Made by a program: the position numbers and the translations under genes
Source: Onchidella celtica
Taxonomy: Eukaryota > Mollusca > Gastropoda > Systellommatophora > Onchidiidae
Length of the DNA stretch: 64,000 nucleotides
Assembly: GCA_963931925.1 (NCBI GenBank)
Contig: OZ007567.1
Coordinates: 81,725,186 to 81,789,185 of the forward strand
Direction: 5' to 3'
In this document: positions 1 to 62,098 of the stretch, piece after piece
How the letters are laid out: every line of letters starts with the position of its first letter
Numbering within the stretch: position 1 is the stretch's first letter
The notes under the pieces: generated by a model
Seen by the model: only the letters and a program-made list of their open reading frames with translations
The model's database searches: none
What the model was told of the DNA's origin: nothing

Positions 1-88
1 ACATGCACGACTTTCTCACTTGTCTCCGTGCGTTAATTTTACTCTCCTCTCCCCCCGTAATTATTAACTATCGCTCACTCCACTCGTG

Positions 89-1941
89 ACAGGGTCGTTA
101 GAGTAATTTCTGCAGTTTACTGGGATACCTAATTGACTTTTGTGTGCACCCTTTTAACCGTACTGTAAATTCGATTGTGTTAGGACCCTAACCGGTTATG
201 TTGTCGGGCTGGACTCCATGTCCGAGCCTTTCACTTGTGCAACACGGGCTACGTAATAGCTCTCTCGGACGTCCGCGCGGGCTCATAAATAAGATGCGGT
301 TCGAGTGGTCAACACACTCCATCATAGACGCAGGAGACAAGAGCCGACAGCACAGTGAACCCAGCCCAGCAACCCGGGCCCGTAGCAGCTCAGAGGCTTG
401 CCGACGCTTGCCATCGCCACCCCGCCCCATAAGGCATGTAGCGGTAGCACAGGACCCGGAGAAACTTTGGGTAAGTTGGAGACTATTATATTAGAAGTGA
501 CTTTAATTTGCGCACCCCCCCCCCCCTTTTCGGGGATGCCACGTAGAGAATGCTGATCTACAGAGACCATTATGAGTCCGGCTCAACGGTAATTGCCATT
601 GTCATTAGACGTGTAGGATGCGCTTTGCAGTACAGTGTCTTGATATTGTGACTTTATTGTCAAAGTTAACGTTTGCGGTGCTAGATGATAATGATGGCTC
701 GCTAACCAAGCTATCACAATTTGCTTGTGTGCATATATATAGTGTATGTGTAGCATTGCCTTGTTGTGGTAGGCAGTGAGGATTTCCTGACATGTTAATG
801 TGGATGACTTATGTTATAGCGAGCGGCACTAAATTTGTGTACCTTGCCAGTACCACTATGCTATAGAGAGCAGTGTGATTGTGTGCTTAATGTTTAAGAT
901 GTGTAATTAATTACATGTATTGGAGATGTATAATATTAGTTGGGCCTCACATGGGTGAGCCCCAGGATTGTTCTATGTGCGGCGGTGGATGAACAATGTT
1001 TCAGTGAGTCTACACATGTTGCAATGAGTCTCGCCGACATATATATATATATATCATGTGCATGTATTATGGTTATCCAGATGTATTATGCTTCTATGAG
1101 TTTCGTAAGTGTGTGAAGGACAGTTTCATTTTAAGGAATGTACACATTACTTTATGTATCTAGTGGTGTGTCACACACATGTTAGCCTGGCGGCATAGCT
1201 CCGCGGCTAAGGTCGAAGGGCATGACCCTTGAGTATCGATTGGGAAGGGAAGTAACCAATACAATAGCCCTGGGGCGGGTTAGTACTAATAATGGGAGTG
1301 GGCCTATGAGGATGGCCTGCATTGGGATGCAGCGTCTGTGTTATGGACGGTCAGTGGGCCATGTTGGCCACTGCGTTATTATTTTATGGAATGGCCACTC
1401 TGGATGTGTTGTACACCGGCTCAGTGGAGCGAAACTATTGTGTTCTTGCCCCTTCATTTATGTCCTTCATACTTTGATTAGTACATTAATTAGTTTATGT
1501 TGCCAGTGTACTAGGAAACTCCTTGTGTATATGATATAGCCACTTGTAGTTGTTATTCATTAACCTTAGCGCTATTTTATTCCATGCATACATATCCAGT
1601 TGGTTATTGCTTAAATTCTATATTATGTTGTTGTTGTTTGATTTAATACTTAATCCTATTACTATGTATGTCCACCATTGATTGCCTGATTAATGTTGTC
1701 ATTATATCCTAATCATATTTTTGTCATTTTTTCTCTTGTTCCAGCTTACGGCTGGTTGGGCTTCTTTTTCTGGGTTTCTTTTTTTGGGCTTTTTTTTGTT
1801 TGGTAGTGATACCGTTGTTAGGCTTTTTGAATAAATAAGATTGCCAGCAGAACCCTGTGTTTGTTAATCCTGTGTATCCTTAAGGGAGTTACTATTGAAC
1901 CCACGCAGTAACCACATTAGCCACTCGTAGTTCATCCAACA
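89..1941 (+). mobile_element. LTR (solo or 3' LTR) with an intron-like insert
   Basis: Positions 89-355 match the promoter-proximal part of the three LTRs at 28-34 kb, and 1745-1941 match their 3' part, ending in the same terminal bases (TCCAACA). A TATA-like CATAAATA lies at about 284 and an AATAAA signal at about 1830, so the span between them is the transcribed R region. Bases 356-458 differ from the other copies and 471-1744 are absent from them. The first 88 bases of the window do not match the other LTRs, so this copy has a different or truncated U3. No primer-binding site follows the 3' end, which suits a solo or 3' LTR. Orientation is inferred from the TATA and polyadenylation signals. 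Confidence 0.8.
471..1744 (+). other. Spliceosomal-type intron inside the LTR
   Basis: The segment begins GTAAGT after ACTTTGG and ends TTGTTCCAG before CTTACGG. Upstream of the 3' end are a pyrimidine-rich stretch (about 1721-1742) and TCCTAATC (about 1707-1714), which fits a branch point about 33 bases from the AG. Joining the flanks reproduces the sequence of the other LTRs across the junction (29291-29310). The 1274 bases hold no coding region that I trust: the 105-codon ORF at 1222-1539 resembles nothing known to me. No target-site duplication is visible at its edges. Confidence 0.75.
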
Positions 1942-2142
1942 GGAAGATCTAACTTAAGAGTATAATTTCCAATTTACAGTTCTCTGGTACATCTAAAAAT
2001 TGTGAAATATACCCAAGACACAGGAATTCGACTAAGACAAATCCTGAATTTTTTGTATTCTGTGAATTCCAGATTTTAAGGCTGTTATCCTCTTGTTGAA
2101 ATAAACCTTTGAAGTGCAAAGTACATGCGTCAGTGACCGATA

Positions 2143-2247: not shown

Positions 2248-5200
2248 CTGCAAAAGTTCCAAAGCATGTGAATATATGATTTCTTCATCTGCCACATAAA
2301 AGCAAACAAACAAAAAAAAAAAGATCAGCTAACAGTTTTATCTCATCTTTGTTAACCTTGAGTTGATGAAAAATAGAGAGGACTATTCGAAGATTGGATA
2401 AGCAAACACATAACTGAGGAGCGTTTATGATCACAGATATATCTCATGGAACTAGAGTCTGTAGGTAACAAAAATATGAAATCCTCTTCAAGCCAAGGTT
2501 TTTGTTTCTTTGTGCTGCCTATATACTATACAAACCACAGAAAAACTGTGGGGTCGCAGCAGGGCTATAAACGTGCTTTGGTGCTGCTAACGAAGCAAGA
2601 ACTCGCAGCTAAGTAAACTGTTTCACTTCATTCCTGTTGAAGTCTTTTATTTTTCGTTTTTTTTTTTTTGACTTGAAAAAAGCGAAAGCCGACAATTTTG
2701 TGTATTTTCTGTCTTCTCTTTAGTTTGCTTTGTATTGTTTGGGTTTTATTTCTCACGCGGGGTTTTGCAACATACAACCTTTTCTTTTTGCCCAATTTTG
2801 TCTATGTACTATAGCCTTGAGCTGGTGATTAGTTTTCTGAAAAAATGTAAGACTATGTTTATGGAATGAAGAATTCAGCAAATTTAACAGCTCAGTGTGC
2901 CATTAAGGTAATTTTCATTCGAACACTTACAATGAAGCAAAAGTTCGGACAGCAATGAAGTTCGTTAAATGGCAGCATGACAGGAATGAAATTTGTATGA
3001 GTCACAGAATATTTGTCCTCGAAGAGTTTCAAGTGACATATTTAATGTCATATATATGTGAATTAATACAGCTCTTGCCAAGCCATTCACAGCAAATGAG
3101 ACCCGGACTGCCACAAATCAGATGTCCTTTAACAAATCACCAGGCGTGGATTCAATTCCTGCTGAGGTGTATGCCTTCGGTGGAGAAAAGCTTATTGAAA
3201 GGCTGACCGAGTTGTTCAATCATATGTTGAAAGCAGGGAAGCTGCCACAGGACTTCAAAGATGCTTCAATCATCCATCTGTACAAAAACAAAGGGGACAG
3301 CCAAGTCTGTGACAACCATCGGGGAATCTCTCTACTTCCAATTGCTGGCAAAATATTGGCAAGAATGCTTCTGAATCGCCTTCTTGATCACCTCTCGTCA
3401 AATGACTTGCTTCCCGAGAGCCAATGTGGCTTTCGTAAAGAGAGGGGAACGGCGGATATGATCTTTGCTGCCAGACAGATTCAGGAAAAATGCATGGAAC
3501 AAAATAATGCGCTGTACATCACATTTGTTGACCTCACAAAAGCATTTGATACAGTGTGTCGTGAAGGCCTCTGGAAAATCTTGGCGAAGTTTGGGTGTCC
3601 ACCCGAATTCATCACAATAGTGCGCCAGTTTAATGATTGCATGCAAGCTGCAGTCAAAAGTAACGGCAGTGTTTCAGAGCCCTTTGCTGTCACAAATGGG
3701 ATAAAACAGGGTTGTGTCTTAGCCCCAACTCTGTTCAGCATCATGTTCTCTGCAATGCTACAAGAAGCCTTTAGCTCTCCTCCTCAAGGGGTAAGCATCA
3801 AGTACCGAACTGATGGCAGTCTATTCAACCTCAGGAGACTTCAGGCAAAAACCAAAACCAAAAGTACTCAAGTCTGTGACCTACTATTTGCTGATGATTG
3901 TGCACTTCTGGCACACGATGAGGATAGCATGCAAAACTGTGTTGATAAGTTCTCTAGTGCCTGTGACAACTTTGGCCTCACAATAAGCACAAAGAAGACG
4001 GAAGTGCTCCATCAGCCTACTCCAGACGACAAGTATCCTGTGACCCCAAATATCAAAGTCCATGACAGTCTTCTGAAGGTGTCGGAGAACTTCACCTATC
4101 TTGGCAGTACACTGTCTTCCACGGCTCGTGTTGATACTGAAATTCCCTCAAGAATCAGCAAAGCCAGCTCTGCATTTGGCAGGCTTCGAAAGAGAGTGTG
4201 GGATGTTGCCGGCATTCGCACAGACACTAAGCTGAAAGTGTACAATGCTGTGGTCCTTCCCACCCTACTCTATGGGGCTGAAACCTGGACAGTGTACCAA
4301 TCGCATGCCAGAAAGCTAAATCACTTTCATCTGGCCTGCCTTAGAAAGATCCTAAGGATCAAATGGCAGGATAAAATTCCAGACACTGAGGTCCTCAATC
4401 GTGCCAAGGAATTGAGCATCTTCTGCCACCTGAAAAAAATTCAGCTACGTTGGGCAGGACATGTTGTCAGAATGCCCGACTCCAGACTCCCTAAGCAAAT
4501 CTTCTTCTCTGAGCTCTCCAATGGAACGAGGAATGTTGGGGCCCCAAAGAGACGTTACAAAGACACTCTCAAGCAATCACTGAAGGCCTTTGCCATTGAT
4601 GTGAGTGAGTGGGAAAAGCTCTCGCTTGATCGAGCAAATTGGAGGGCGGCCCTTACCAGAGGCAGCAAAGCATGGGAAGCTGACAGAGTCCAGCAGGCTA
4701 TTAAAAAAAGAGAACGGCGCAAGAAAAGGCCCAGTGGTACTGAACCAACGGAGCACTCTTGTCACTTATGCGGAAGGGTCTTCAGGGCAAAAATAGGACT
4801 TATCAGTCACATGAGAAGCCATAAGTCATGAAAGAACAGTCTTTCCATTCTGTCCTCTGTGTCCTTTACTTCTCTTTATTGTCCATGTGTTGAAATTCTC
4901 AACAATTTCTGTTCTTTATTCCTCTGGTGTTGTTAAGGTCATCATCATACCTGATGGACGAACTATTATTATTATATGTGAATATATGTACTTTCTGACA
5001 CCTGAGAGGATTTTTTGAATGAACGAGGGCAAAGTTGAATTAGTGATACAGGACATCAACAAATGGATAGATCTGATGTTATCTGACTGGTAAATTGTCC
5101 ATGGGTATATCAGTGAGTGGATGAAAAAATGAAGGAATAAAGGTATAAGCCTTAGTCTGAAAGAGTGAGTGTAAACAATTATTAGGGAGGGTGTATGAAG

Positions 5201-8200: not shown

Positions 8201-11200
8201 TTTTATTCCTTGATAAAGGCGAAAGCCGAAAATTTGAGCATTTTCTATCTTCTCTTTAGTTTGCTTTGTATCGTTTGAGTTTTATTTCTCATGCAAGGTT
8301 TCGCTACATACTGTAACATATGTCAAACTGGCAACCTACACGTTTGGCACCTGATGCCAGAGAGACCTGGCAATGCACCAACGAACTTTGTATCGGACTT
8401 CCGGCCACCCCCTCAGGCTAGCAACAAGATTTCCTTGCCTACTTTTATGATCTAGATCTATGAACATCATCTACAATCTATAAGGTTAGTATACACGATA
8501 TAACTAGTCTTTTACATGGTGTCAGTACTCACAACCTAGCCCATATTTGATCAAGATACAACCCACCAGAACCCAGGTCTAGTAAAATCCAAACATGCAT
8601 TCCAACAACCCGTTTGAGCACCCATCCATCGATTGGGGAGCCCCTGATCTTTACAAAGAATTCACACGATTCAAAGATCACGTAGGATTCGTGTTCAGTG
8701 GACCCTTATCGGATTTGACTCCTAAACGACAGGCAGGTTGGTTGGGGACTTGGATTGGCTCTCAAGGTCGGAAAATCTATCGCACACTCCAATGGGAGGA
8801 TGGGGACAAAGATGACCCAGACAAAGTTCTAAGCAAGTTCGCGGAGTACGTCAGGCCCAGGAAGAACAAAAGGATTGCCAGGCACAATCTCAAACAGCGG
8901 CGCCAAACACAGACAGAGTCCTTCGACAAATTCCTCACGGAGCTAAGACTGATCATCATGGATTGCGATTACTCAGAACCTGATGACATACTGATCGACT
9001 GTATCATTGATGGAGTCTATGACCGAAAGGTACAAGAACGGCTGCTGGATAGGGGTGAGGCCCTAACACTGCACAAAGCTATTGAAATCTGTGAACAATT
9101 CGAAACGTCGAAGAAACAAGTTCAAATCGTACGCGGTCAGGAGGAGGACCCTTCGGTCACTGAAATACATGAGATGAAACAGAAACCCTCAACAAACTCC
9201 AGAAAAGCCACGCAATTGAACTGCTACCGCTGTGGAGGAGACAACCAGCACCCTAAAACAAGAGGGAATGTCCTGCGCAAGGCACATCCTGCTCATTGTG
9301 TAAAAAGCCAAATCACTGGGCCAAGGTCTGCCGTTCACAAAAGAAGATTCACAGCATCACACCTAGTGAACAGGACTCAGAAGAAGTCATGGCCATCTAT
9401 TCCTATGCCACAGTTGACAACCGACATACAAAAGACAAATGGACCCAGGGGCTGTTAGCATCAGGAACACCCATGTCTTTCAAAATCGACACGGAGCAAA
9501 GTGTAACACTATTACGGTGGCCGACTACCAAGCCATTTCAGATCAATGTCCCATTCGACATTCATCAAAAATCCTTCGGACCTACTCAAACCACCACATT
9601 CACCCAGTGGGTGCAGTGGACATTGAATTAGCACACAAAGCCACAACTGTGACTGAGGAATTTCAAGTTGTTAACCTGAAACAAGAAAATGTGATTTCCG
9701 GCAGAGTTGCTGAAACACTCGGTCTCCTCACTCGCATGTCATCACTCTCTGACTCCAACAGGCTTCAACAGGAGTTTCCAGATGTTACAGAGGCTACTGG
9801 GATCCTCCCTGGAACGTATTCAATCAAACTGAAGGATGGGGCAGTAGGAGTCGTTCATCCACCCAGGCGGCAACCTGCTGCATTAAAACAGAAAATCATT
9901 GACAAACTAAATGAGATGGTATCAAATGGTCACATGGCCAAGGTGGAGGAACCAACTGAATGGGTGAACAGCATGATGGTGGCTGTCAAAAATGACAAAA
10001 TCAGGATCTGCCTTGACCCCAAAGATTTGAACAAGGCCATTAAAAGGGAACACTACCCTATGAGGACCATAGAGGAGGTTGTACAAGAAATTCCAGGCTG
10101 TAAACTATTCTCTACACTCGATGCAAAGAGCGGATTCCTTCAGATAAAACTCGATGAAGCGTCATCCCTCCTTACGACATTCAACACGCCAGTGGGGCGC
10201 TACAGATGGCTGAGGTTGCCATTTGGAATCTGTTGCGCACCAGAGGTCTTCCAAAGAATCATGGACAATATGCTGGAAGGCATCAGTGGAGCCTATGCTG
10301 TCATTGATGACATTCTCATTGCAGCCAGGACACTTGAAGAACATGACAGGATTCTACGTCAAGTCATGGAGAGGGCATCCAGCTATAATCTGAAGCTCAA
10401 CTTTGAAAAGACAAGCCTCAGGCAAACACAAGTCTCTTATGTTGGACATGTACTTACAGAACATGGACTGAAACCAGACCCGGCCAAGGTACAAGCAGTC
10501 CTCGACATGCAGAAGCCTTCAAGCAAAGATGATGTACGCCGTTTCTTGGGGTTCATCACATACCTAGGGAAATTCTTGCCTCACCTCAGCGAGGAATCTC
10601 TTCCCTTACGTGAGGTTCTCAGGGCTGATGTGGATTTTGTTTGGGACTCGAACCAGGATGCTGCATTCACTCGCCTAAAACTCTTATGTACCCAATGCCC
10701 AGTTCTCAAATACTTTGACACGTCAGTACCTGTGGAAATCCAGTGTGATGCTTCAAGCAAGGGTCTTGGTGCTGTCCTGTTGCAGGAAGGACATCCCATA
10801 GCGTACGCCTCCAGAGCCCTGACAGACGCTGAAACAAGGTACGCACAGATCGAAAAAGAAATGCTCTCTATAGTCTTCGCTTGCAAGAAATTCCACTGCT
10901 TCATATTTGGTAAGGAAACCACAGTCTACAATGATCACAAGCCACTTGAGATGATCTTCAAAAAAACCACTGATCACTGCCCCAATGAGACTGCAGAGGA
11001 TGCTGCTTTCTCTTCAATGGTACGATCTGAAAATGTGTTACAGAAAGGGTGCAGATATGCAGCTGGCAGACACCCTTTCACGTGCCTACATCTCAGACAA
11101 AACCACAGAGCTTGGACCTATTGAAACCGACATCAAGCTTGTGATCTCTATCACAGATGAAAAGTACAGTGAGTTACAAGCAGCATCGGACGATGAACTA

Positions 11201-14200
11201 GCTCATCTGAGAGAAATCATCTTGCGAGGGTGGCCCGATCAGAAATCAGAGGTTCCACAAGGCCTCCGTCCATATTGGGACTCAAGGGCGGAACTCTCAG
11301 TGTCGGACGGGATTGTAGTGAAAGGCACCAGACTGGTCATTCCACCAAGCATGAGACAGCACATGTTGTGCCTAATCCATAGATCTCATCTAGGGATCAC
11401 AAAATGCAAGCAAAGGGCGAGAGAAGTAATGTACTGGCCCAGCATGAATGCCGATATCGAGGAGACAGTCAAGAACTGCTCAAACTGTGCAGATGTCCAG
11501 AGGCAACAGATGAAAGAACCGTTGAAACCGTCACCGCTTCCTGCCTTTCCTTTCCAAAGAGTATCCACAGATATATTTGAATTCCAAGGCTCCAACTACC
11601 TAATCATGGTTGACTCATACTCAAGATTCATACTGACAGACAGACTAAAAAACCTGCAGAGTGCCACTGTGATCAATGCAATGCGCCAGGTCTTTTGTGT
11701 ACATGGAATCCCTGAGATTCTGACCAGTGACTGTGGTAGACAATATACCTCTCGGGAATTCCAGGACTTCTGCTCTAGCTGGAGCATCCAACATGTCACA
11801 AGTTCGCCACACTATCAACAGGCCAACGGTCTAGCAGAGAGAGCTGTACAGACGGTCAAAAGACTATGGAAAAAGGGCGCTGATCAGCATCTACCCCTAC
11901 TGGATTACAACAGCACACCTATGGAAGGCTACAATGCATCCCCTGCACAACTGCTCATGGGCCGCCGGCTAAGGAATAATCTCCCTATACCACAAGCACA
12001 CCTTAAACCTCAATCTGTAGACGCCAGCCATGTTGCCAAAAGCTTTCTAAAGCAAAAAGCCACTCAGGCTTATCACCATGACAAAGTTGCTACCAAACCC
12101 CTGCAACCATTGAAGCCAGACCAAGAAGTACGTGTAGCGCCACTCCCTGGGCAAAGAAATTGGTTTCCTGCAGTAGTCAGCTACCAACATAACCACCCAA
12201 GATCTTACATCGTGGACACAGGCAAGACAAAGTACCGACGCAATAGACGACATATAAGACCACCTTCAAACAAAGCCAATGATCCGCTCAGAAGTAGAAC
12301 AGTAGAACTAGAAGAACTTCCTGAAGCAATACAGGAACGGCTACCAGAGTCGCAGCAACCCGAGTCGCCAGCGAAGGAACAGGACCATCCTGGTACTAGA
12401 AACCTTTCCTCAACAGATCCACCAGTGAGACAGTCAAACTATACCACCCGTTCGGGACGTACAGTACGCCTCCCCGAACGGCTGGATCTGTAACCTATCT
12501 ACTATGAAACGAGTGTGTGGCAAGGCACAGCTACATACTGATCGTCAAGAATGTCAAGTGTATATATGTTAGTGTTGTGTTTTTCTGGCCCATGTTTTTG
12601 ACTTCACATGTTGTGTATATTGATTGAATACTAAAATGGAATTGGAAAAGGGGAGATGTAACATATGTCAAACTGGCAACCTACACGTTTGGCACCTGAT
12701 GCCAGAGAGACCTGGCAATGCACCAACGAACTTTGTATCGGACTTCCGGCCACCCCCTCAGGCTAGCAACAAGATTTCCCTGCCTACTTTTATGATCTAG
12801 ATCTATGAACATCATCTACAATCTATAAGGTTAGTATACACGATATAACTAGTCTTTTACAATACAACTTTTTCTTTTTGCCCGATTTTAACTTTGAATT
12901 GGAGAAAACATACTTAACAAACATAAGAAATTTTATTTTGAGATGTTCATTTTGCTGTGTTACCGTATAGCTGTCTTCCTTCCAATTTTTTTACTACAGC
13001 AACTTGGACAAAAAGAATTCGCACACTCCACTCTTTTTCGTTTCAGAGATGTTTTCATATGCTGTAAACAGCTTGATCATTTTTTTTTTGGCACTGTAAA
13101 GTTCAGTAGATAAGCTTCATCTGCTAGGGATACGCTATCAAAAATCTTGACCAAAGAAAAATTAGGGTAATGGCTTCAAAGCCTTCTCAAGAAAACAAAT
13201 TTAATTCTGAATTTATGTCTGCCTTCATTAACACAGGAAAGTTATATTTATATACAGGGCCGGATTTAGATAAAAGAGAGGCCCTAAGCTAGTCTAGCTG
13301 TGAGGCCCCTCCCAACACCCTACCTTCACGCCTAGAGGAAGATGGAGGTGTTCTAAATAATTTGAGTAACGCCAATGTTAGGTGAAGATAAGTGTTGAAA
13401 CTTCCGGACTTCACAATTCCTTCTTGAAAGGACATAAGATAGGAAAATTACAAATGAGTTATTAGTGAATAGACTACAATGCATTGTTACATCATAATGT
13501 AAGAAAAGGCAATGCGAAACACAAACTATTACGCAGAATGGCCTGAGACAGCAAGCCCCCCCCCCCCCTCCCCTCCCCTAGATATTGAGGCCCTAGGATT
13601 CAGCCTACTTAGCCTAAAGGTAAATCCGGCGCTGTTTATATACTGTCAAAATTACATCATGACTTCCATAATTCTATAACTTCAAATAATTATGCTTACT
13701 GACCTAAGGAAATGGCCACATTAGCCGTTAGGAGCAGAATTCCGACAAAAATGAGGTATGCATCCCATGATTCATAGAGACCTGAGGACAGAAAAACATG
13801 ACTCTTTAACTGGTATTGTTTTGTGACAATGAATGTGATCCCAGTTTTGACAGCGGTTTCACTGGACTGTTGGATGGTAATGTCTAGATGTTGATATTCT
13901 AACGTAACAGCACTAAATAAATGGTATACAAAATAGAAGTAATTCATATTTTTGTGCACATAAGGTTCAATTTACCATGTAGTCCAATAATGTAACATTT
14001 AGAATTGGGTCTTCGCAGATTTTCTCTTGTAAAATGCAGTTGGGAATGACTGCCAGATTCACAGAACGTAATAAAAGAAACAACTTTTACTGAGATTAAC
14101 TGCAGGTAGAGATACCTGTGCACATAAGAAAAGACCTATTCTCAAGTGATATCTGTGTATGCGAGAAAAGACCAAGCCAAGTCTCAAGAGATATCTGTGC

Positions 14201-26200: not shown

Positions 26201-29200
26201 ATCTGACACCGATATGATAAAGAGATTTCACCACAGCATCAGCTCAAAAATACAGTCAAAACTTGTTAATCTTTTTAACAAATTACAACATTGAGTGAAA
26301 ATTATACATGCACCTTTTTATATCATTTAATTCTGATAAAATTATTTTTTCACCAGCTAAACACAAAATGCTCAGTATCCGCCCCCCCCCCCACCCCTGC
26401 CCCTACATATGATGCCCAAGGCACGTGCCATCCCTGCAATACCTTAGATACCAGTTGGCCACTGTCCGTCCATCCCAATATTCATGATTCACGTATCATT
26501 CACATTCACATATTCATGGCGTTATTCCTCCATCCACAAATCCATCAGTCTGAGTGAGAATATTCTTACCCTCTAGCCATCCCCTTCTCTGTCTGTCCAC
26601 AAACCCATATATTTTATTATGATACATCCAGCCGCTAAGGTTCACAACAAAATGGCAGCAGAATGTAGCATAGGGTAAAAAGTTTATGACAAGGGCAGGC
26701 AACCTACGGCCGCTGCCAGATCCTGTCCAGTAAGGGATTTTGACAAGCCGGCTAGCAAATAATACTACACTCATCATGTGTCTTTCCAACACATTCAAAA
26801 TATGCCTAAATTCAAATAAATTTCCACTTAACAAAATTCTTTGATTACTAATTGGCATTCTCGGTTAAGCACAAAATAATATTCTAGCATGTGTTATTCT
26901 TCAATTTGAGGTAAAATAGAGCTAGATGTATTTAAATGGATAATTCCCATGTTTAAAGTTTTTAAAAAAAAATCCCTCTCATAATAAAAGTGATAAACTA
27001 CAGCCTTGCTTCAGAACTCATGCGCACCATAACACTACGCACCAAACTGAACGCTTGATGCGGTTACTCTTTATGACATGCACGTACTATATTATATTAC
27101 GAAACAAACATGCAAATATACAGATGTTACATAGCAATAAACATTGTTATTTTTAAAAAATACATGCTTGAAGTAAACAACTTTTAATTATAGCCATCAT
27201 CTTCCTTATCTCAATTGCCACCTTCCTGCCAAATTTAAGGCCTGAAGAGTGTATAGTTTGGTCAGTTAGTCATGCCAAAGGCATTTATGTTTCACACCGT
27301 CCATTCAGTAAAACACAATCTGGCCCGCATAGACAGAAAAGTTGCCGATGCCTGATTTAAGGAAACTCATCTGACTTACCATCCTTCAAAATCTGCTTCT
27401 CTGATGGCAATACAGTTTCCCCACGACCGCAACATCCTTTGCTTTTACCTGGCACCCGTACAAACACACTGAGCCCCTGCCAGCTCAGAGAGATTGGGTG
27501 AACTCTGTCAGTGTTGAAGCGCCTTGATGTTGTTGTTTCTATCTGAAGGATTATTTTTAAGCGACAATAGATCTATAACTGTTTGGTGTTTCAAATTTAC
27601 AGTCTAGCGCGAAACTTTAGATTTAGGCTTCATGTCCCTAGGCAACTCTAATCATAGAATGGGCCTAGCAGCTATATAATGGATTATTTGGGGCAAGGAG
27701 GGGTGGGGGTGGGGGCGGGAGTGTGGGGGGGGGGAAGAGAGGTGGGAAAAGAGGGGAGGGGGAGAAGTTCCATATGAGTTACACAACTTTCGCCTCGCAC
27801 CTATTTCATGTTCTGTGTGTTAATTGCCGAGCTCCACATTTACTATGAACACATCCACCTAAAGGACTAACTTTTCAAGAGGGCACTGCTCCCCTTAGAC
27901 CCACCAATACACGGACGCTCCTAAAGTCGCGCCCTTGCAATATTATCCCTATTGTGTAACTCAAATAGAACTCCTCCCTGGAGAAAAACGAGGGAACCAG
28001 GTTTATATCGAGCATCGCCAGGTATCTCTGCTAGTGAAAGGCAAACATTTCATAGTAAAAAAAATAATTTAAAAAAAAAAAAAAAAAAGGTGACACGTTT
28101 CCCTATGACTTACTGTGTAAGTAGTTTTAATACAATTAACATTTTCGGGATTTAAAAAAAAGAGAGAAGGGAGAGCCCATCGAGTCTGCAGATTAATCTA
28201 CCTGTGCTTCATGACATGCTTTTGGCATGTATCACATGAAACAAGAATCGTACCGATATCAGCCGTCTTTATTCCCATCTGTGAGAGGATGAACGATTTT
28301 CTATTTTTAATATGTGCTTTCATGGTAACTCTGGTGCGTGAGTGAGGGACGGCCACTCATAGTAGTTTATGGGCACTTGGCCGAGTACCATTAATTGGAT
28401 TATTTCCCTTGTAATACTAGCGCGGGACCCGTTATTCACATCACGGTGAAAAGCGCGCATTTTGATTGGTCAGTTGGAAATGTACCGGGCTTCCAACTCT
28501 TATATCATGGCTTTGAGTTTCTTACAACTCGCTCACTCGTTGTTATCCACCGACAGAAAGACGGGAACCCGAATTCATTTTTGAGAGTAGACAATACCCT
28601 ATCGGTACAAAATAGGTACTCATGATAACGTTTGTTATCAATGGAGATACGTCGTATTAATGGACGAAAGTATCCCGCACAAAATTGTCGAATGTTGTTA
28701 GTCCTGACACTTTGAAAATTTATATTAAAACTATTACCGGGTTTCTGGTATAAGTAGTCAGTTAGAATTGTAGCAGCAAGTTTCTACTTTATAATGGTAC
28801 TAATTTCGTTGTGCTTTGATGCACAGGTCCTATTGAAATAATTAATAAGAGGGTCTCGGATTTAAAGCAAACTATGAGTTAGACGCATGTTATCCCCGAT
28901 AAATCCAACCTGGGTCAAATTTATTCAATTATTGCTGGAGGGGTCGTTAGAGTAATTTCTGCAGTTTACTGGGATACCTAATTGACTTTTGTGTGCACCC
29001 CTTTAACCGTACTGTAAATTCGATTGTGTTAGGACCCTAACCGGTTATGTTGTCGGGCTGGACTCCATGTCCGAGCCTTTCACTTGTGCAACACGGGCTA
29101 CGTAATAGCTCTCCCGGACGTCCGCGCGGGCTCATAAATAAGATGCGAGTTCGCGTGGTCAACACACTCCATGATACTCCATCAAAGACGCAGAGACAAG

Positions 29201-32200
29201 AGCCGACAGCACAGTGAACCTAGGCCGGCGGCGGCCTGCCGTGGCGCTCCTCGCTCAAAACATGGCCTAGTCCAGTTGCGCCAGTAGCAGAGAAACTTTG
29301 GCTTATGGCTGGTTGGGCTTCTTTTTTTTGGGCTTCTTCTTTTCTGGGTTTCTTTTCTTTTTTTGGGCTTCTTCTTTTTCTGGGCTTCATTTTCCTTTTT
29401 TTGTTTGGTAGTGATACCTTTGTTAGGCTTTTTGAATAAATAAGATTGCCAGCAGAACCCTGTGTTTGTTAATCCTGTGTATCCTTAAGGGAGTTACTAT
29501 TGAACCCACGCAGTAACCACATTAGCCACTCGTAGTTCAATCCAACATTTTCTGGTGTCAAGAAGTGGGATACACAGAAGGGTTAGTTTGTAGTGTAGAA
29601 AACCCAGCCATGGAAATTTTTAGTTTGAGGCCCAGCCAGCCAGCCAACCCCTGCCCCACCCCATAGGAACCATGGAGCCACGAAGACCAACGCCCTCCAA
29701 CGTCAACTCAAGATTCAGGACCTGTATCCCAGTCCTATGTACATCACCCATCCCACTGCAGTCAACAGGGACCCGTTGCGGGTATTTCATCCCGCAATCT
29801 ACACGTATCCGCAACATCCGTCCCCACAGCCTGCGTCGACCAGTGTCTGGTACTCCCAGCCCACCGCCCTTGCCAGCCACCTGCAGCCCAACCAGACTTT
29901 CAAACATGGGTTGAGAACTTTACAGCCCCTACCTCCTGTGCGACGGTCCAGCCGCCCACACAGACAACCCCAGAGATTGGACCTCTGACTCTTATTAGTG
30001 ATTGACATTAGACATTGACGGTGAGTGCAGAAAGAGCAGGGGAGCGCACCCATCAAGACCCCCCGAGTTTCCATCAGGCCAGATGATAGACCACCGAATT
30101 CAAGTGAGCTCGCCTCAAGATTTTAAGTTAGAGAGTATGCCCATGTTGGCTTTCTCCACAGCTTAGTTACAATTACTTTTAATGCCTATGTTGACCTTGC
30201 CTTTTTCATTGCACTAGTGCCCTTATAGCATATTGTCTTTTTTTGTACTGTTCGATCCTACGTTAACCCTGATAGTGGTCTGGGACCACCGTTGCAGGTC
30301 TGGGACCTGTTGTTTTGTCCATATGATGTAACTTACTACAGCCAGAGCTGAGACTGTTGTGTACATCTTCAGGATGCCAGTAGTAACTTAGCCGGTTCAC
30401 GCCACCTGTTAGTAGTTATAAAGAGGATGGACCATTGTTGTACTTCGGTTCACTGGGTGTAATTTGCAATTGTTCTACTCTAAGTGATGGTATCATAGCC
30501 CCTTAGAGTTTGATTGTACCTTCAGTGGTCTTTTGTAAACCTTTGAATTGATGTATGTGTCACGTAAGGGACTACGTGACTTAGCAGGGGAGAATGTGAG
30601 AGGATGAACGATTTTCTATTTTTAATATGTGCTTTCATGGTAACTCTGGTGCGTGAGTGGGGGACGGCCACTCATAGTAGTTTATGGGCACTTGGCCGAG
30701 TACCATTAATTGGATTATTTCCCTTGTAATACTAGCGCGGGACCCGTTATTCACATCACGGTGAAAAGCGCGCATTTTGATTGGTCAGTTGGAAATGTAC
30801 CGGGCTTCCAACTCTTATATCATGGCTTTGAGTTTCTTACAACTCGCTCACTCGTTGTTATCCACCGACAGAAAGACGGGAACCCGAATTCATTTTTGAG
30901 AGTAGACAATACCCTATCGGTACAAAATAGGTACTCATGATAACGTTTGTTATCAATGGAGATACGTCGTATTAATGGACGAAAGTATCCCGCACAAAAT
31001 TGTCGAATGTTGTTAGTCCTGACACTTTGAAAATTTATATTAAAACTATTACCGGGTTTCTGGTATAAGTAGTCAGTTAGAATTGTAGCAGCAAGTTTCT
31101 ACTTTATAATGGTACTAATTTCGTTGTGCTTTGATGCACAGGTCCTATTGAAATAATTAATAAGAGGGTCTCGGATTTAAAGCAAACTATGAGTTAGACG
31201 CATGTTATCCCCGATAAATCCAACCTGGGTCAAATTTATTCAATTATTGCTGGAGGGGTCGTTAGAGTAATTTCTGCAGTTTACTGGGATACCTAATTGA
31301 CTTTTGTGTGCACCCCTTTAACCGTACTGTAAATTCGATTGTGTTAGGACCCTAACCGGTTATGTTGTCGGGCTGGACTCCATGTCCGAGCCTTTCACTT
31401 GTGCAACACGGGCTACGTAATAGCTCTCCCGGACGTCCGCGCGGGCTCATAAATAAGATGCGAGTTCGCGTGGTCAACACACTCCATGATACTCCATCAA
31501 AGACGCAGAGACAAGAGCCGACAGCACAGTGAACCTAGGCCGGCGGCGGCCTGCCGTGGCGCTCCTCGCTCAAAACATGGCCTAGTCCAGTTGCGCCAGT
31601 AGCAGAGAAACTTTGGCTTATGGCTGGTTGGGCTTCTTTTTTTTGGGCTTCTTCTTTTCTGGGTTTCTTTTCTTTTTTTGGGCTTCTTCTTTTTCTGGGC
31701 TTCATTTTCCTTTTTTTGTTTGGTAGTGATACCTTTGTTAGGCTTTTTGAATAAATAAGATTGCCAGCAGAACCCTGTGTTTGTTAATCCTGTGTATCCT
31801 TAAGGGAGTTACTATTGAACCCACGCAGTAACCACATTAGCCACTCGTAGTTCAATCCAACATTTTCTGGTGTCAAGAAGTGGGATACACAGAAGGGTTA
31901 GTTTGTAGTGTAGAAAACCCAGCCATGGAAATTTTTAGTTTGAGGCCCAGCCAGCCAGCCAACCCCTGCCCCACCCCATAGGAACCATGGAGCCACGAAG
32001 ACCAACGCCCTCCAACGTCAACTCAAGATTCAGGACCTGTATCCCAGTCCTATGTACATCACCCATCCCACTGCAGTCAACAGGGACCCGTTGCGGGTAT
32101 TTCATCCCGCAATCTACACGTATCCGCAACATCCGTCCCCACAGCCTGCGTCGACCAGTGTCTGGTACTCCCAGCCCACCGCCCTTGCCAGCCACCTGCA

Positions 32201-34426
32201 GCCCAACCAGACTTTCAAACATGGGTTGAGAACTTTACAGCCCCTACCTCCTGTGCGACGGTCCAGCCGCCCACACAGACAACCCCAGAGATTGGACCTC
32301 TGACTCTTATTAGTGATTGACATTAGACATTGACGGTGAGTGCAGAAAGAGCAGGGGAGCGCACCCATCAAGACCCCCCGAGTTTCCATCAGGCCAGATG
32401 ATAGACCACCGAATTCAAGTGAGCTCGCCTCAAGATTTTAAGTTAGAGAGTATGCCCATGTTGGCTTTCTCCACAGCTTAGTTACAATTACTTTTAATGC
32501 CTATGTTGACCTTGCCTTTTTCATTGCACTAGTGCCCTTATAGCATATTGTCTTTTTTTGTACTGTTCGATCCTACGTTAACCCTGATAGTGGTCTGGGA
32601 CCACCGTTGCAGGTCTGGGACCTGTTGTTTTGTCCATATGATGTAACTTACTACAGCCAGAGCTGAGACTGTTGTGTACATCTTCAGGATGCCAGTAGTA
32701 ACTTAGCCGGTTCACGCCACCTGTTAGTAGTTATAAAGAGGATGGACCATTGTTGTACTTCGGTTCACTGGGTGTAATTTGCAATTGTTCTACTCTAAGT
32801 GATGGTATCATAGCCCCTTAGAGTTTGATTGTACCTTCAGTGGTCTTTTGTAAACCTTTGAATTGATGTATGTGTCACGTAAGGGACTACGTGACTTAGC
32901 AGGGGAGAATGTGAGAGGATGAACGATTTTCTATTTTTAATATGTGCTTTCATGGTAACTCTGGTGCGTGAGTGGGGGACGGCCACTCATAGTAGTTTAT
33001 GGGCACTTGGCCGAGTACCATTAATTGGATTATTTCCCTTGTAATACTAGCGCGGGACCCGTTATTCACATCACGGTGAAAAGCGCGCATTTTGATTGGT
33101 CAGTTGGAAATGTACCGGGCTTCCAACTCTTATATCATGGCTTTGAGTTTCTTACAACTCGCTCACTCGTTGTTATCCACCGACAGAAAGACGGGAACCC
33201 GAATTCATTTTTGAGAGTAGACAATACCCTATCGGTACAAAATAGGTACTCATGATAACGTTTGTTATCAATGGAGATACGTCGTATTAATGGACGAAAG
33301 TATCCCGCACAAAATTGTCGAATGTTGTTAGTCCTGACACTTTGAAAATTTATATTAAAACTATTACCGGGTTTCTGGTATAAGTAGTCAGTTAGAATTG
33401 TAGCAGCAAGTTTCTACTTTATAATGGTACTAATTTCGTTGTGCTTTGATGCACAGGTCCTATTGAAATAATTAATAAGAGGGTCTCGGATTTAAAGCAA
33501 ACTATGAGTTAGACGCATGTTATCCCCGATAAATCCAACCTGGGTCAAATTTATTCAATTATTGCTGGAGGGGTCGTTAGAGTAATTTCTGCAGTTTACT
33601 GGGATACCTAATTGACTTTTGTGTGCACCCCTTTAACCGTACTGTAAATTCGATTGTGTTAGGACCCTAACCGGTTATGTTGTCGGGCTGGACTCCATGT
33701 CCGAGCCTTTCACTTGTGCAACACGGGCTACGTAATAGCTCTCCCGGACGTCCGCGCGGGCTCATAAATAAGATGCGAGTTCGCGTGGTCAACACACTCC
33801 ATGATACTCCATCAAAGACGCAGAGACAAGAGCCGACAGCACAGTGAACCTAGGCCGGCGGCGGCCTGCCGTGGCGCTCCTCGCTCAAAACATGGCCTAG
33901 TCCAGTTGCGCCAGTAGCAGAGAAACTTTGGCTTATGGCTGGTTGGGCTTCTTTTTTTTGGGCTTCTTCTTTTCTGGGTTTCTTTTCTTTTTTTGGGCTT
34001 CTTCTTTTTCTGGGCTTCATTTTCCTTTTTTTGTTTGGTAGTGATACCTTTGTTAGGCTTTTTGAATAAATAAGATTGCCAGCAGAACCCTGTGTTTGTT
34101 AATCCTGTGTATCCTTAAGGGAGTTACTATTGAACCCACGCAGTAACCACATTAGCCACTCGTAGTTCATCCAACACATCATTTAGCTGTTTTAATTTAT
34201 TCCTTCCAAGATGACCCGGCAAATGAAGCTCTTCATCATACTATTTATTAAAAACCATTGACATTCGTGAACGGAAGACAGCGCCTGGCAAACTCACCTG
34301 GTTGCGAATTGTTCCATTCTGACTTATCACTCCTTTGATATCATTGACAGCGTAGCTGACTTGTCTTTCAACATATGATCTACTAGAGGAGTCAAATAGA
34401 AGCGCTCTCTCGCCGTTATCTGCCAT
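2143..34426 (-). CDS. ABCG half-transporter, White-like (gene A), 21 exons
   Basis: Exons from 5' to 3': 34298-34426, 27380-27542, 25895-25943, 24818-24911, 21221-21313, 20561-20632, 19987-20178, 19330-19406, 18908-18979, 18374-18476, 17287-17388, 16894-16922, 16458-16563, 15672-15803, 15078-15170, 14697-14754, 13704-13781, 7807-7912, 6956-7056, 5667-5767, 2143-2247. All junctions are GT-AG and in frame; the sum is 2055 nt, 684 residues. Order is N-terminal ATP-binding domain then membrane domain, the reverse order typical of ABCG. Walker A is 112-120 (K118), the Q-loop is at Q158, the signature ISGGERKR is 221-228, Walker B CDE ends at E246, and the H-loop is H278. The YNPADH motif after the ATP-binding domain and the [13 protein letters not shown] segment near the C-terminus are typical of White-group ABCG proteins, which move pigment precursors and related small molecules in insects. 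The substrate here is unknown. Exon 1 and the ATG are the least certain part. Confidence 0.93.
2534..2800 (+). repeat. Interspersed repeat, complete copy
   Basis: The sequence from CAGAAAAACTGTGGGGTCGC to CTTTTTGCCCAATTTT recurs at 8115-8311 and resumes at 12862 after the Gypsy insertion. It contains GCGAAAGCCGA and a T-rich 3' part. It has no coding capacity and probably is a short non-autonomous element of unknown class. It lies in intron 20 of gene A. Confidence 0.6.
3060..4975 (+). mobile_element. 5'-truncated non-LTR retrotransposon (LINE)
   Basis: Reading frame similarity begins at about 3060, inside the region just before the reverse transcriptase domain, so the endonuclease and 5' end are missing. 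One long ORF runs to 4831. The 3' non-coding tail ends in ATT repeats near 4975. It sits in intron 20 of gene A, antisense to the gene. I do not assign a clade. Confidence 0.85.
3122..4831 (+). CDS. LINE reverse transcriptase with C-terminal C2H2 zinc finger, 5'-truncated
   Basis: The open part covers 569 codons. Reverse transcriptase motifs run in order: [12 protein letters not shown] at the start, [10 protein letters not shown] (motif A aspartate), [10 protein letters not shown], and FADD (catalytic motif C). The thumb-like stretch LYGAETW and the [12 protein letters not shown] segment are typical of the C-terminal region of many animal LINEs. The last 25 residues form a zinc finger of the pattern C-x2-C-x12-H-x3-H. 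The frame is open without breaks, so the insertion is fairly recent, but the element cannot be autonomous without its endonuclease. The ATG at 3122 is only the first in the surviving part: the frame continues upstream to about 3060. Confidence 0.85.
   Translation: MSFNKSPGVDSIPAEVYAFGGEKLIERLTELFNHMLKAGKLPQDFKDASIIHLYKNKGDSQVCDNHRGISLLPIAGKILARMLLNRLLDHLSSNDLLPESQCGFRKERGTADMIFAARQIQEKCMEQNNALYITFVDLTKAFDTVCREGLWKILAKFGCPPEFITIVRQFNDCMQAAVKSNGSVSEPFAVTNGIKQGCVLAPTLFSIMFSAMLQEAFSSPPQGVSIKYRTDGSLFNLRRLQAKTKTKSTQVCDLLFADDCALLAHDEDSMQNCVDKFSSACDNFGLTISTKKTEVLHQPTPDDKYPVTPNIKVHDSLLKVSENFTYLGSTLSSTARVDTEIPSRISKASSAFGRLRKRVWDVAGIRTDTKLKVYNAVVLPTLLYGAETWTVYQSHARKLNHFHLACLRKILRIKWQDKIPDTEVLNRAKELSIFCHLKKIQLRWAGHVVRMPDSRLPKQIFFSELSNGTRNVGAPKRRYKDTLKQSLKAFAIDVSEWEKLSLDRANWRAALTRGSKAWEADRVQQAIKKRERRKKRPSGTEPTEHSCHLCGRVFRAKIGLISHMRSHKS
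4976..5666. other. Intron 20 remainder of gene A, nothing recognised
   Basis: AT-rich sequence between the LINE tail and exon 20. I see no ORF, RNA gene or repeat boundary that I can support. Confidence 0.5.
6060..6475 (-). mobile_element. tRNA-derived SINE, diverged copy
   Basis: It matches the element at 40000-40460 over the block containing CCGAGAAGACTAGG and GGATCAGGGACA, and ends (5' on the minus strand) in GAGAGGCGAGCACC and CTCTAGACCA, which is the tRNA-like head with an A-box. The 3' portion (about 6100-6175) recurs at 15828-15905. It lies in intron 19 of gene A in the same orientation as the gene. Confidence 0.65.
8115..8311 (+). repeat. Interspersed repeat, second copy, split by the Gypsy element
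   Basis: It matches 2534-2800 with an internal deletion. The match stops at 8311 and resumes at 12862 (CAACTTTTTCTTTTTGCCC), so the LTR retrotransposon at 8312-12861 was inserted into it. This makes the pre-insertion site reconstructable from the copy at 2.5 kb. Confidence 0.75.
8312..8516 (+). repeat. 5' LTR of the Gypsy element
   Basis: 205 bp beginning TGTAACATATG and ending CTTTTACA. It is identical to 12657-12861 except one position. Confidence 0.95.
8595..9458 (+). pseudogene. Gypsy gag with damaged zinc knuckle
   Basis: The N-terminal 200 residues have the charged helical character of Gypsy gag proteins. The zinc-knuckle region starts with CYRCGG at about 9221 and then becomes irregular. 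The expected second knuckle (PNHWAKVC) is in a different frame, opened at 9296, so a frame change falls at about 9250-9295. Residues after that point in this frame are out-of-frame read-through. The ATG at 8595 is 78 bases after the 5' LTR. Confidence 0.8.
9296..9631 (+). pseudogene. Gypsy gag-pol junction and protease fragment
   Basis: This frame carries PNHWAKVC (second zinc knuckle) and a protease-like segment, [14 protein letters not shown], in which the usual aspartic protease triad D-T-G appears as D-T-E. The frame ends at 9631 and the reverse transcriptase continues in another frame from about 9590. The substitution and the frame change both suggest an inactive protease. Confidence 0.65.
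9439..11124 (+). pseudogene. Gypsy reverse transcriptase and RNase H
   Basis: Reliable homology runs from about 9590 to 10960. The reverse transcriptase has [10 protein letters not shown], the catalytic VIDD at about residue 285, and LRLPFG. RNase H begins at [12 protein letters not shown] run of seven A at about 10960 changes the frame right after the RNase H active-site region, and the continuation is in the frame opened at 10985. The last 45 codons here are therefore out of frame. Confidence 0.85.
10985..12493 (+). pseudogene. Gypsy integrase
   Basis: 502 codons. It has an H-H-C-C zinc-binding region (HLGITKCK through NCSNCAD), a DDE core with D in VSTDIFEF, D in TSDCGRQY and E in GLAERAVQ, then a C-terminal segment resembling the GPY/F module (NWFPAVV). 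It ends in a basic tail with [11 protein letters not shown]. The integrase itself is open and complete; only the upstream frame changes separate it from the rest of pol. Confidence 0.85.
12657..12861 (+). repeat. 3' LTR of the Gypsy element
   Basis: 205 bp, preceded by the polypurine tract and followed by the ATAC duplication. Confidence 0.95.
13255..13634. mobile_element. hAT-type MITE, non-autonomous
   Basis: It begins CAGGGCCGGATTTA and ends TAAATCCGGCGCTG, an imperfect terminal inverted repeat. It is flanked by the perfect 8-bp duplication TTTATATA (13247-13254 and 13635-13642), the length expected for hAT insertions. The 380-bp interior has no ORF. It lies about 70 bases downstream of the exon 17 donor of gene A. 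Confidence 0.85.
14105..14230. repeat. Short tandem repeat of about 45 bp, three imperfect units
   Basis: Units contain GATATCTGTG, GAGAAAAGACC and TCTCAAG. Units two and three are nearly identical; the first is diverged. It lies in intron 16 of gene A. Confidence 0.6.
15828..15905 (-). mobile_element. SINE 3' fragment
   Basis: It matches 6100-6175 (AGGAGGTTCGCTG, CTTGGCATT), preceded by a run of T at 15823-15839 which would be the poly(A) end on the minus strand. The fragment lies about 25 bases upstream of exon 14 of gene A. Confidence 0.5.
17890..18350 (+). mobile_element. LINE 3'-end fragment
   Basis: Broken frames give the typical end of an animal LINE ORF2: [22 protein letters not shown], then [16 protein letters not shown] and GRRSRG, and finally [10 protein letters not shown]. 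It ends in a TGATGATAATA tail at about 18350, only 24 bases from the splice donor of gene A exon 10. Confidence 0.75.
19987..20178 (-). CDS. Gene A exon 7, ABC signature and Walker B
   Basis: 64 codons in phase 0 carrying ISGGERKR (signature), IFFCDE (Walker B with catalytic glutamate) and TSGLD (D-loop). It is the largest exon and the strongest single piece of family evidence. Acceptor TATGATCAG, donor GTAGGT. Confidence 0.95.
20641..21040. repeat. Degenerate tetranucleotide low-complexity block
   Basis: GAATGAAT repeats turn into AATCAATC, CAAGCAAG and then CATCCACC-type repeats. It lies between exons 6 and 5 of gene A. Confidence 0.8.
21412..21600. repeat. 5' terminal and subterminal inverted repeats of the Ginger-like element
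   Basis: It holds two near-perfect palindromes (arms TGCCTAATGT and ACATTAGGCA around GT), further half-sites in both orientations, and a 16-bp perfect hairpin (21483-21498 with 21509-21524, loop 10). Matching half-sites recur at 24174-24320. The repeated ATTAGGCA unit is a likely transposase-binding site. Confidence 0.8.
22112..23803 (+). pseudogene. Ginger-like transposase (DDE integrase fold), frameshifted
   Basis: The N-terminal part is open from 22112 (MDRTAFETK). At 22302-22317 the 8-mer CGGACAGA is directly duplicated and the homologous frame changes. The integrase part is then open to 23139: zinc-binding H-H-C-C ([13 protein letters not shown]), then D in CQIDLI, D in LQSDNGREF and E in QGAVERLN. 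The next part is a diverged acidic linker with a duplicated block (23165-23254 and 23346-23435, offset 181, which shifts the frame), and the C-terminal domain is open at 23291-23803 ([22 protein letters not shown]). The arrangement resembles the integrase-derived cellular proteins KRBA2 and SCAND3. An upstream intron with acceptor TTTCTTCAG at 22102 is possible. Three breaks suggest it is inactive. Confidence 0.75.
24174..24330. repeat. 3' terminal and subterminal inverted repeats of the Ginger-like element
   Basis: It contains several copies of ACACATTAGGCA and its complement, some as the variant ACATTGGGCA, and ends ATTATGCGTGACA. Confidence 0.8.
24818..24911 (-). CDS. Gene A exon 4, Walker A
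   Basis: It completes the P-loop split by intron 3: exon 3 ends in LGA plus AG, and this exon supplies T and GAGKST. The split position is identical in gene B (exons at 60149-60197 and 59009-59102, also 49 and 94 nt). Confidence 0.93.
25944..27379. other. Intron 2 of gene A, no recognised element
   Basis: AT-rich with a C-run near 26383-26395. I see no supported gene or mobile-element end here. Confidence 0.5.
28280..29547 (+). repeat. LTR 1 of the array
   Basis: It begins TGTGAGAGGATGAACG and ends TCAATCCAACA. A TATA-like CATAAATA is at about 29132 and AATAAA at about 29431. At 29301/29302 it lacks the insert present in the LTR at 471-1744. Confidence 0.9.
29548..30594 (+). mobile_element. 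Internal region 1, non-autonomous Gypsy derivative
   Basis: It starts with TTTTC followed by TGGTGTCAAGAAGTGGG, a primer-binding-like site, and ends with the purine tract GCAGGGGAGAA before LTR 2. An open frame to the stop at about 29988 is rich in proline and glutamine and ends [17 protein letters not shown]. That resembles the C-terminal tail of the Gypsy integrase at 12 kb ([11 protein letters not shown]), so this is probably a deletion derivative keeping only the two ends of a Gypsy coding region. The product, if made, is unknown. Confidence 0.7.
30595..31862 (+). repeat. LTR 2 of the array
   Basis: 1268 bp, shared as the 3' LTR of unit 1 and the 5' LTR of unit 2. It starts TGTGAGAGG right after the purine tract. 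Confidence 0.9.
31863..32909 (+). mobile_element. Internal region 2, copy of internal region 1
   Basis: 1047 bp, apparently identical to 29548-30594, including the primer-binding-like site, the short open frame and the purine tract. Confidence 0.9.
32910..34176 (+). repeat. LTR 3 of the array
   Basis: 1267 bp, one A shorter near the 3' end (TTCATCCAACA), a form it shares with the LTR at 89-1941. It ends 121 bases from exon 1 of gene A. Confidence 0.9.
34298..34426 (-). CDS. Gene A exon 1, start codon
   Basis: 43 codons from ATG to CAG with a strong donor GTGAGT. The product is hydrophilic and cytosolic ([10 protein letters not shown]...). I chose it because the frame and phase 0 donor fit exon 2 and because it matches the position of exon 1 in gene B, but N-terminal sequence is not conserved between the paralogues. 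Confidence 0.75.

Positions 34427-43466: not shown

Positions 43467-62098
<18,632 letters not shown>

Follow-up and report, generated by a model that had tools for sequence, protein, structure and literature searches.

The window and the element that holds the segment

The window analysed here is a stretch of 64,000 nucleotides from Onchidella celtica, and its features are collected in Table 1. Positions 471-1744 form a 1274-bp GT-AG segment within the 3' LTR of a non-autonomous Ty3-type LTR element. The original prediction had placed the start of this LTR at position 89; window 1-91 belongs instead to another, nested LTR-like element, which starts TGTCAC, ends GTGACA, has the target-site duplication (TSD) GGGTC and is known from its two ends only. 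The 3' LTR begins at approximately G000:C1:81716801, 8.5 kb upstream of window base 92, mainly because of a 7.8-kb nested insertion. The 5' LTR of the same element starts at G000:C1:81713226 (TSD GGAA). Judged by the TATA-like site and the AATAAA signal, segment 471-1744 is predicted to lie in R.

Table 1. Features of the host LTR and of the intron-minus array (window coordinates)
Feature	Position	Strand	Basis or remark
End of nested LTR-like element (GTGACA, TSD GGGTC), inserted in 3' LTR U3	1..91	.	sequence
Rest of intron-plus 3' LTR (late U3, R, U5)	92..1941	+	homology to array LTRs and 5' LTR L002
TATA-like CATAAATAAG; putative R start ~30 bp downstream	284..293	+	sequence, inferred
Exon 1 variable part, type I, ending GAGAAACTTTGG	371..470	+	sequence comparison
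Intron	471..1744	+	1274 bp, GT-AG
5' splice site GTAAGT	471..476	+	sequence, kept in copies
Branch-like CTAAT, A at 1712	1709..1713	+	sequence, kept in copies
Pyrimidine tract and acceptor CCAG	1717..1744	+	sequence, kept in copies
Exon 2 of R, pyrimidine-rich modules	1745..1850	+	3' end inferred
AATAAA poly(A) signal	1830..1835	+	sequence
GGAA TSD, matching 5' end at G000:C1:81713226	1942..1945	+	sequence
CATC TSD, left	28276..28279	+	sequence
Intron-minus LTR 1, exact junction 29301/29302	28280..29547	+	sequence
Internal region 1; PBS-like site at 29553, PPT AGGGGAGAA at end	29548..30594	+	sequence
119-aa frame, C-terminal motifs common with autonomous pol by eye	29629..29988	+	no Pfam match
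Intron-minus LTR 2, junction 31616/31617	30595..31862	+	sequence
Internal region 2	31863..32909	+	sequence
Intron-minus LTR 3, junction 33931/33932	32910..34176	+	sequence
CATC TSD, right	34177..34180	+	sequence

Three LTRs of 1267-1268 bp in an array at 28-34 kb lack the segment. As the original prediction stated, each reads ACTTTGG directly into CTTATGG, exactly at the junction listed in Table 1. The window LTR has ACTTTGG at 464-470, GTAAGT from 471 onward and TTCCAG at 1739-1744, and its exon 2 begins CTTACGG at 1745, one base off the array's CTTATGG; placement of the junction is ambiguous by a single G. Window and array LTRs are identical at 12/12 bases before the junction and at 20/21 after it, and the U3 and U5 blocks farther out are 93-99% identical. 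The exon stretch at about 371-458 differs in kind between the window copy and the array because exon 1 exists in two types in this family, each of which is found with and without the intron. Exon 2 (window 1745-1800 and its relatives) is a hypervariable run of GGGCTTCTTTT-type modules between conserved ends.

Chains of the form LTR-internal-LTR-internal-LTR, built of near-identical units, occur in both states (window 28280-34176, L019/L020, C1:60873671-60880949). Elsewhere, the window contains a separate Ty3-type element with 100% identical 205-bp terminal repeats (8312-12861), a long frame (3062-4831) that contains reverse transcriptase and ends in a weak C2H2-finger match, and a 52-bp minisatellite of 20 copies with 97% matches (49665-50699). 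Scans of the window with Rfam (gathering thresholds) and for tRNAs gave no matches.

Splice signals of the segment

The 1274-base extent of the segment, GTAAGT to TTCCAG, is exact in the window letters, and both the branch-like TCCTAATC and the pyrimidine tract are present as the original prediction described them, with the branch-like A at 1712 lying 32 nt upstream of the intron end. The segment thus has the GT-AG ends and the donor, branch and pyrimidine consensus of a U2-type intron. When both window strands were scored with generic splice-site weights, which are not trained on O. celtica, a donor of equal score occurred at 34 of 127,983 positions and an acceptor of equal score at 13 of 127,959. 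The joint chance of such a donor and acceptor for one indel is about 5e-8, both registers allowed. GTAAGT, CTAAY and CCAG are kept in 27/27 distinct introns (from 34) of 1271-1284 bp, the donor and acceptor not being independent here, as the introns were located by them. By eye, the segment ends carry no TSD or terminal inverted repeat. In view of the genomic copies described below, segment 471-1744 very probably splices.

Structure and class of the family

The LTRs measure 2.47-2.60 kb with the intron and 1.2-1.3 kb without it, and the internal region is about 1.05 kb in most fetched copies. TG...CA LTRs, TSDs, a PPT and near-identical LTR pairs identify the family as LTR retrotransposons. 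A PBS-like motif, TGGTGTCA(A)GAAGTGGGA, lies 5 nt past the LTR and is a putative tRNA primer-binding site. The internal frame of the window array has no Pfam match. An autonomous intron-minus relative (L059/L060; junctions at C2:16145749 and 16152506) encodes gag with a CCHC knuckle, protease, RT, RNase H and integrase, the order of Ty3/Gypsy elements, as read from pieces scanned separately. A pair of intron-plus LTRs 7975 bp apart (C1:68810657 and 68818632) belongs to an element whose pol is 99.3% identical over 1001 bp to that of the autonomous C2:16145749 intron-minus element, indicating that autonomous elements occur in both states. The Ty3-type family with the LTR intron is one that includes autonomous and short non-autonomous members. 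The latter resemble TRIMs in their short internal region without pol (about 1.05 kb, no Pfam match), but not in their LTRs, which at the lengths given above exceed the hundreds of bp of TRIM LTRs. Exact searches returned no match to the LTR tail pattern in a viral contig collection and none to the U3 pattern in a genome contig collection.

A few copies have unusual arrangements. In reverse-complemented L023 (1399-1743) and L024 (6400-6744), an LTR end and intron tail are inverted past the internal region, forming an aberrant element. One solo LTR, itself without most of its late U3, exon 1 and intron, has a solo intron-plus LTR (L027:2126-5662, TSD TATG) lying in its pyrimidine-rich exon 2. 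Six matches to the acceptor pattern, spaced 16.5-17.7 kb apart, lie in G000:C1:4051322-4137578 and suggest tandem segmental duplication.

Genome-wide counts of the two states

We searched the genome (1.14 Gb, 43 contigs) for exact matches, a count that misses diverged copies. Scoring the LTR copies for presence or absence of the segment, as had been proposed, showed both states: exact exon-donor junctions were found in 1398 LTRs and exact spliced junctions in 797 (402 with GAAACTTTGG and 395 with GAGACTTTGG). The same donor and spliced-junction patterns, reversed as a control, had 0 matches genome-wide. The count of exact acceptor matches, 1554, is unequal to the donor count of 1398. For exon type II, 842 exact exon ends led into the donor in 472 cases, into exon 2 in 335 and into other sequence in 35; by subtraction only (797 minus 335), about 462 spliced copies are of exon type I. 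The original prediction named ragged boundaries among the findings that would contradict it; the boundaries were not ragged.

Of the 35 other ends, four were read: an intron-plus copy with GTGAGT, an intron-minus copy that carries a point change, and two copies where GGTTYTCC directly continues exon 1. L021 and other unspliced copies have TTGATAG (TTTCTTGATAG) immediately before GGTTYTCC, which is thus preceded by AG, so that the two joins fit use of a second acceptor. Genome-wide, 16 places are consistent with exon 1 being joined after this second AG of exon 2, and two of them were read; the joins come in several sequence versions and include three pairs spaced 2.2-2.4 kb. A join one G shorter was found 0 times genome-wide (its reversed control pattern matched once). 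In the DNA copies, then, 16 second-AG places stand against 0 off-by-one joins, as expected of an alternative splice site, which suggests that the second AG is occasionally used as an acceptor. The second-AG joins speak for more than one exact event.

State of the LTRs at integration

Insertions of both states have TSDs of their own. By eye, the 4-bp TSDs match in 11/11 intron-plus insertions with both ends at hand, a count that leaves aside those on C4 (L015), C9 (L019/L020) and C6:31.3 Mb (L022), where one end was recognised. Among intron-minus insertions, they match in 7/7 LTR-pair elements and 9/10 solo LTRs, the remaining solo LTR lacking a matching TSD. Assembly artefact was dropped as an explanation, given the many loci with their own TSDs.

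The two LTRs of an element also agree in state. On C1 to 84.9 Mb, 161 sites yielded 49 same-strand neighbours less than 12 kb apart, namely 30 plus-plus, 15 minus-minus and 4 mixed. All 38 neighbours at element spacing had the same state (24 plus, of which 22 at 3.5-3.7 kb and two at about 8.0 kb; 14 minus, at 2.2-2.4 kb), and 0 of the 4 mixed neighbours in this stretch had such a spacing. If LTRs changed independently after integration, concordance in 38/38 would have a chance of about 3e-11, a rough figure as some pairs lie in one chain. LTR pairs differ by only 0-6 substitutions in eight plus pairs (compared over about 2.5 kb) and five minus pairs (about 1.25 kb), the comparison leaving out 3/8 minus pairs and L022, where an LTR end was not recognised; both states have thus moved recently. 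Taken together, the TSDs, the near-identical LTR pairs and the uniform state at element spacing indicate that the state was set at the RNA or cDNA stage.

Phylogeny of the LTRs and internal regions

Repeated switches of state appear on the LTR tree. For the LTR portion that precedes the junction, we built a tree from 45 distinct LTRs (20 plus, 25 minus) out of 61 rows; LTRs lacking the start motif, or whose upstream part fell outside 850-1250 bp, had been set aside beforehand. This tree has 9 state changes. The data reject a topology in which all minus LTRs form one clade, both for the 45 LTRs (p-AU 4.6e-11) and for the 34 of type I (p-AU 0.005). The type I tree needs 8 changes, three of them forced by well-supported branches; the internal-region tree needs 5, of which three are likewise forced. 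The latter has 23 distinct rows, from which 4/34 of unassigned state were excluded; L008 and L051 each account for two of these rows through overlapping readings. These change counts carry no direction (gain versus loss), and the number of independent losses is uncertain because recombination of co-packaged RNAs can disturb trees of LTR parts. Such recombination could account for part of the state switching. Close plus and minus sisters matched on both sides of the junction were not found among 22 plus and 24 minus LTRs, a search that left out copies without a recognised LTR end or acceptor.

Origin of the two states

We consider it very likely that 471-1744 is a working spliceosomal intron in the R region of the LTR, and that spliced and unspliced RNAs of this family have both been retrotransposed. 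The original prediction had offered loss of a natural intron via retrotransposed spliced RNA as the first of its two alternatives, and the counts, the exact boundaries, the second acceptor, the interspersion of the states and their uniformity within elements all support it. The other, intron gain, would make the main history one intron-creating insertion into an intron-less LTR, with the states then shuffled by template switching; the segment would still splice, and few minus copies would come from splicing. The polarity is unreadable from directionless change counts, both exon-1 types have both states, as recombination would also yield, and the sample holds no close plus/minus sisters matched on both sides, all of which this history accommodates. 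The second-AG joins, however, would require exact splicing-like events of their own, the segment ends show by eye neither TSD nor terminal inverted repeat, and the state is widely interspersed on the LTR tree, so that we regard gain as improbable. A single, ancient intron-creating insertion may nevertheless be how the segment first arose.

Minus copies might alternatively have arisen by DNA deletion after integration, through microhomology repair or slippage. One G is common to both segment ends, and exon 2 is slippage-prone, so the second-AG joins alone could arise in this way. Deletion is nevertheless very hard to reconcile with 797 exact junctions, with 38 concordant against 0 mixed neighbours at element spacing, with minus copies that have their own TSDs, and with zero off-by-one joins at the second AG; we think it highly improbable. 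Finally, the high copy number might bring to mind a mobile, introner-like intron inserting at many sites. The hallmark of introners is the same intron at many unrelated sites, with a TSD near the splice sites. The proposed search for copies at unrelated sites, which would have favoured a mobile intron, instead put 1252/1290 exact intron heads directly behind the LTR exon end, at one LTR site, and 40 scored matches of 1769 candidates were all full length, those fetched lying in LTRs. We give this explanation almost no credence.

Loss of the intron through retrotransposed spliced RNA could proceed as follows. Transcription would start past the TATA-like site in the 5' LTR, placing the intron in the 5' untranslated leader. 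Splicing would spare gag-pol, the PBS and the PPT, and the spliced RNA would therefore still be a complete genome. Some genomic RNAs would stay unspliced through packaging and reverse transcription and so yield intron-plus elements; others would be spliced first, giving elements exactly without the intron in both LTRs, and the second AG in exon 2 may occasionally be chosen as the acceptor. In minus-strand transfer, both new R copies derive from the 5' R of the packaged RNA, which would explain why the intron is missing from both LTRs. If splicing instead ran from the donor of the 5' LTR to the acceptor of the 3' LTR, as the original prediction proposed, the RNA would be without a PBS and would be expected to leave nothing recognisable in the genome. 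With 1398 versus 797 exact matches, intron-plus is the commoner state, and it has itself been retrotransposed with the intron in both LTRs; its majority suggests that unspliced RNA was often the template.

An R intron should vanish from both LTRs in one round from spliced RNA, and the approximately 1,400 exact survivors need explaining. One speculative answer, which we think rather unlikely, is that the intron serves as a sorting tag: spliced RNA would be exported and translated and unspliced RNA favoured for packaging, the intron being kept since only the plus form makes both pools, with minus copies as by-products that lack the switch and are still mobile. If each integrated copy records the splicing of its RNA, the genome amounts to a natural, large-scale artificial-intron assay. 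It would offer a way to ask (i) how often packaged RNA escaped splicing and whether unspliced RNA is preferred for packaging, and (ii) how an LTR element handles a strong splice donor located ahead of its poly(A) signal.

Comparison with known systems

In the Ty1 his3AI assay, whether the DNA copy has or lacks an intron shows if the RNA was spliced before being reverse transcribed; that intron is engineered, whereas the one in this family is natural and lies in the LTR. To our knowledge, foamy virus acceptors lie outside the LTR and no foamy virus intron lies wholly within R, nor do we know of a published LTR-internal intron with hundreds of natural plus and minus copies. Literature searches, with subscription journals mostly outside their coverage, listed no paper on an intron that lies entirely within an LTR or its R region. 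One match to the phrase 'intron in the LTR' refers to a vector named LTR1.20 (PMC5542766).

Penelope-like elements are also retroelements able to disperse intron-containing sequences, but they are not LTR retrotransposons; antisense templates are discussed for them, with unspliced sense RNA still allowed by the authors (PMC3846280). The Ta-TRIMs of Echinococcus are likewise short non-autonomous LTR elements with cis-spliced transcripts, yet the sections available describe no intron internal to an LTR that some genomic copies have and others lack (PMC4558846). It is thus already known that LTR elements can have introns, that LTRs can hold splice donors and that Penelope-like elements can retain introns. 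An intron that sits wholly within the LTR and has natural plus and minus copies by the hundred did not turn up in these searches.

Two systems bear on how such an intron might be used. BARE1 of barley is, like the present family, an LTR retrotransposon with an optional intron, and it has separate RNA pools for translation and packaging, the packaged pool being unspliced (PMC3735527). Its intron differs in being 104 nt long, near the gag end and outside the LTR, and in altering the protein; amplification of its genomic DNA yielded no spliced-size product (PMC3735527). Foamy viruses, like the window LTR, have their major splice donor within the LTR and ahead of the poly(A) signal, and there U1 binding suppresses polyadenylation in the viral 5' LTR (PMC3694450). 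Separate pools as in BARE1, or use of the donor as in foamy viruses, may apply to the window family.
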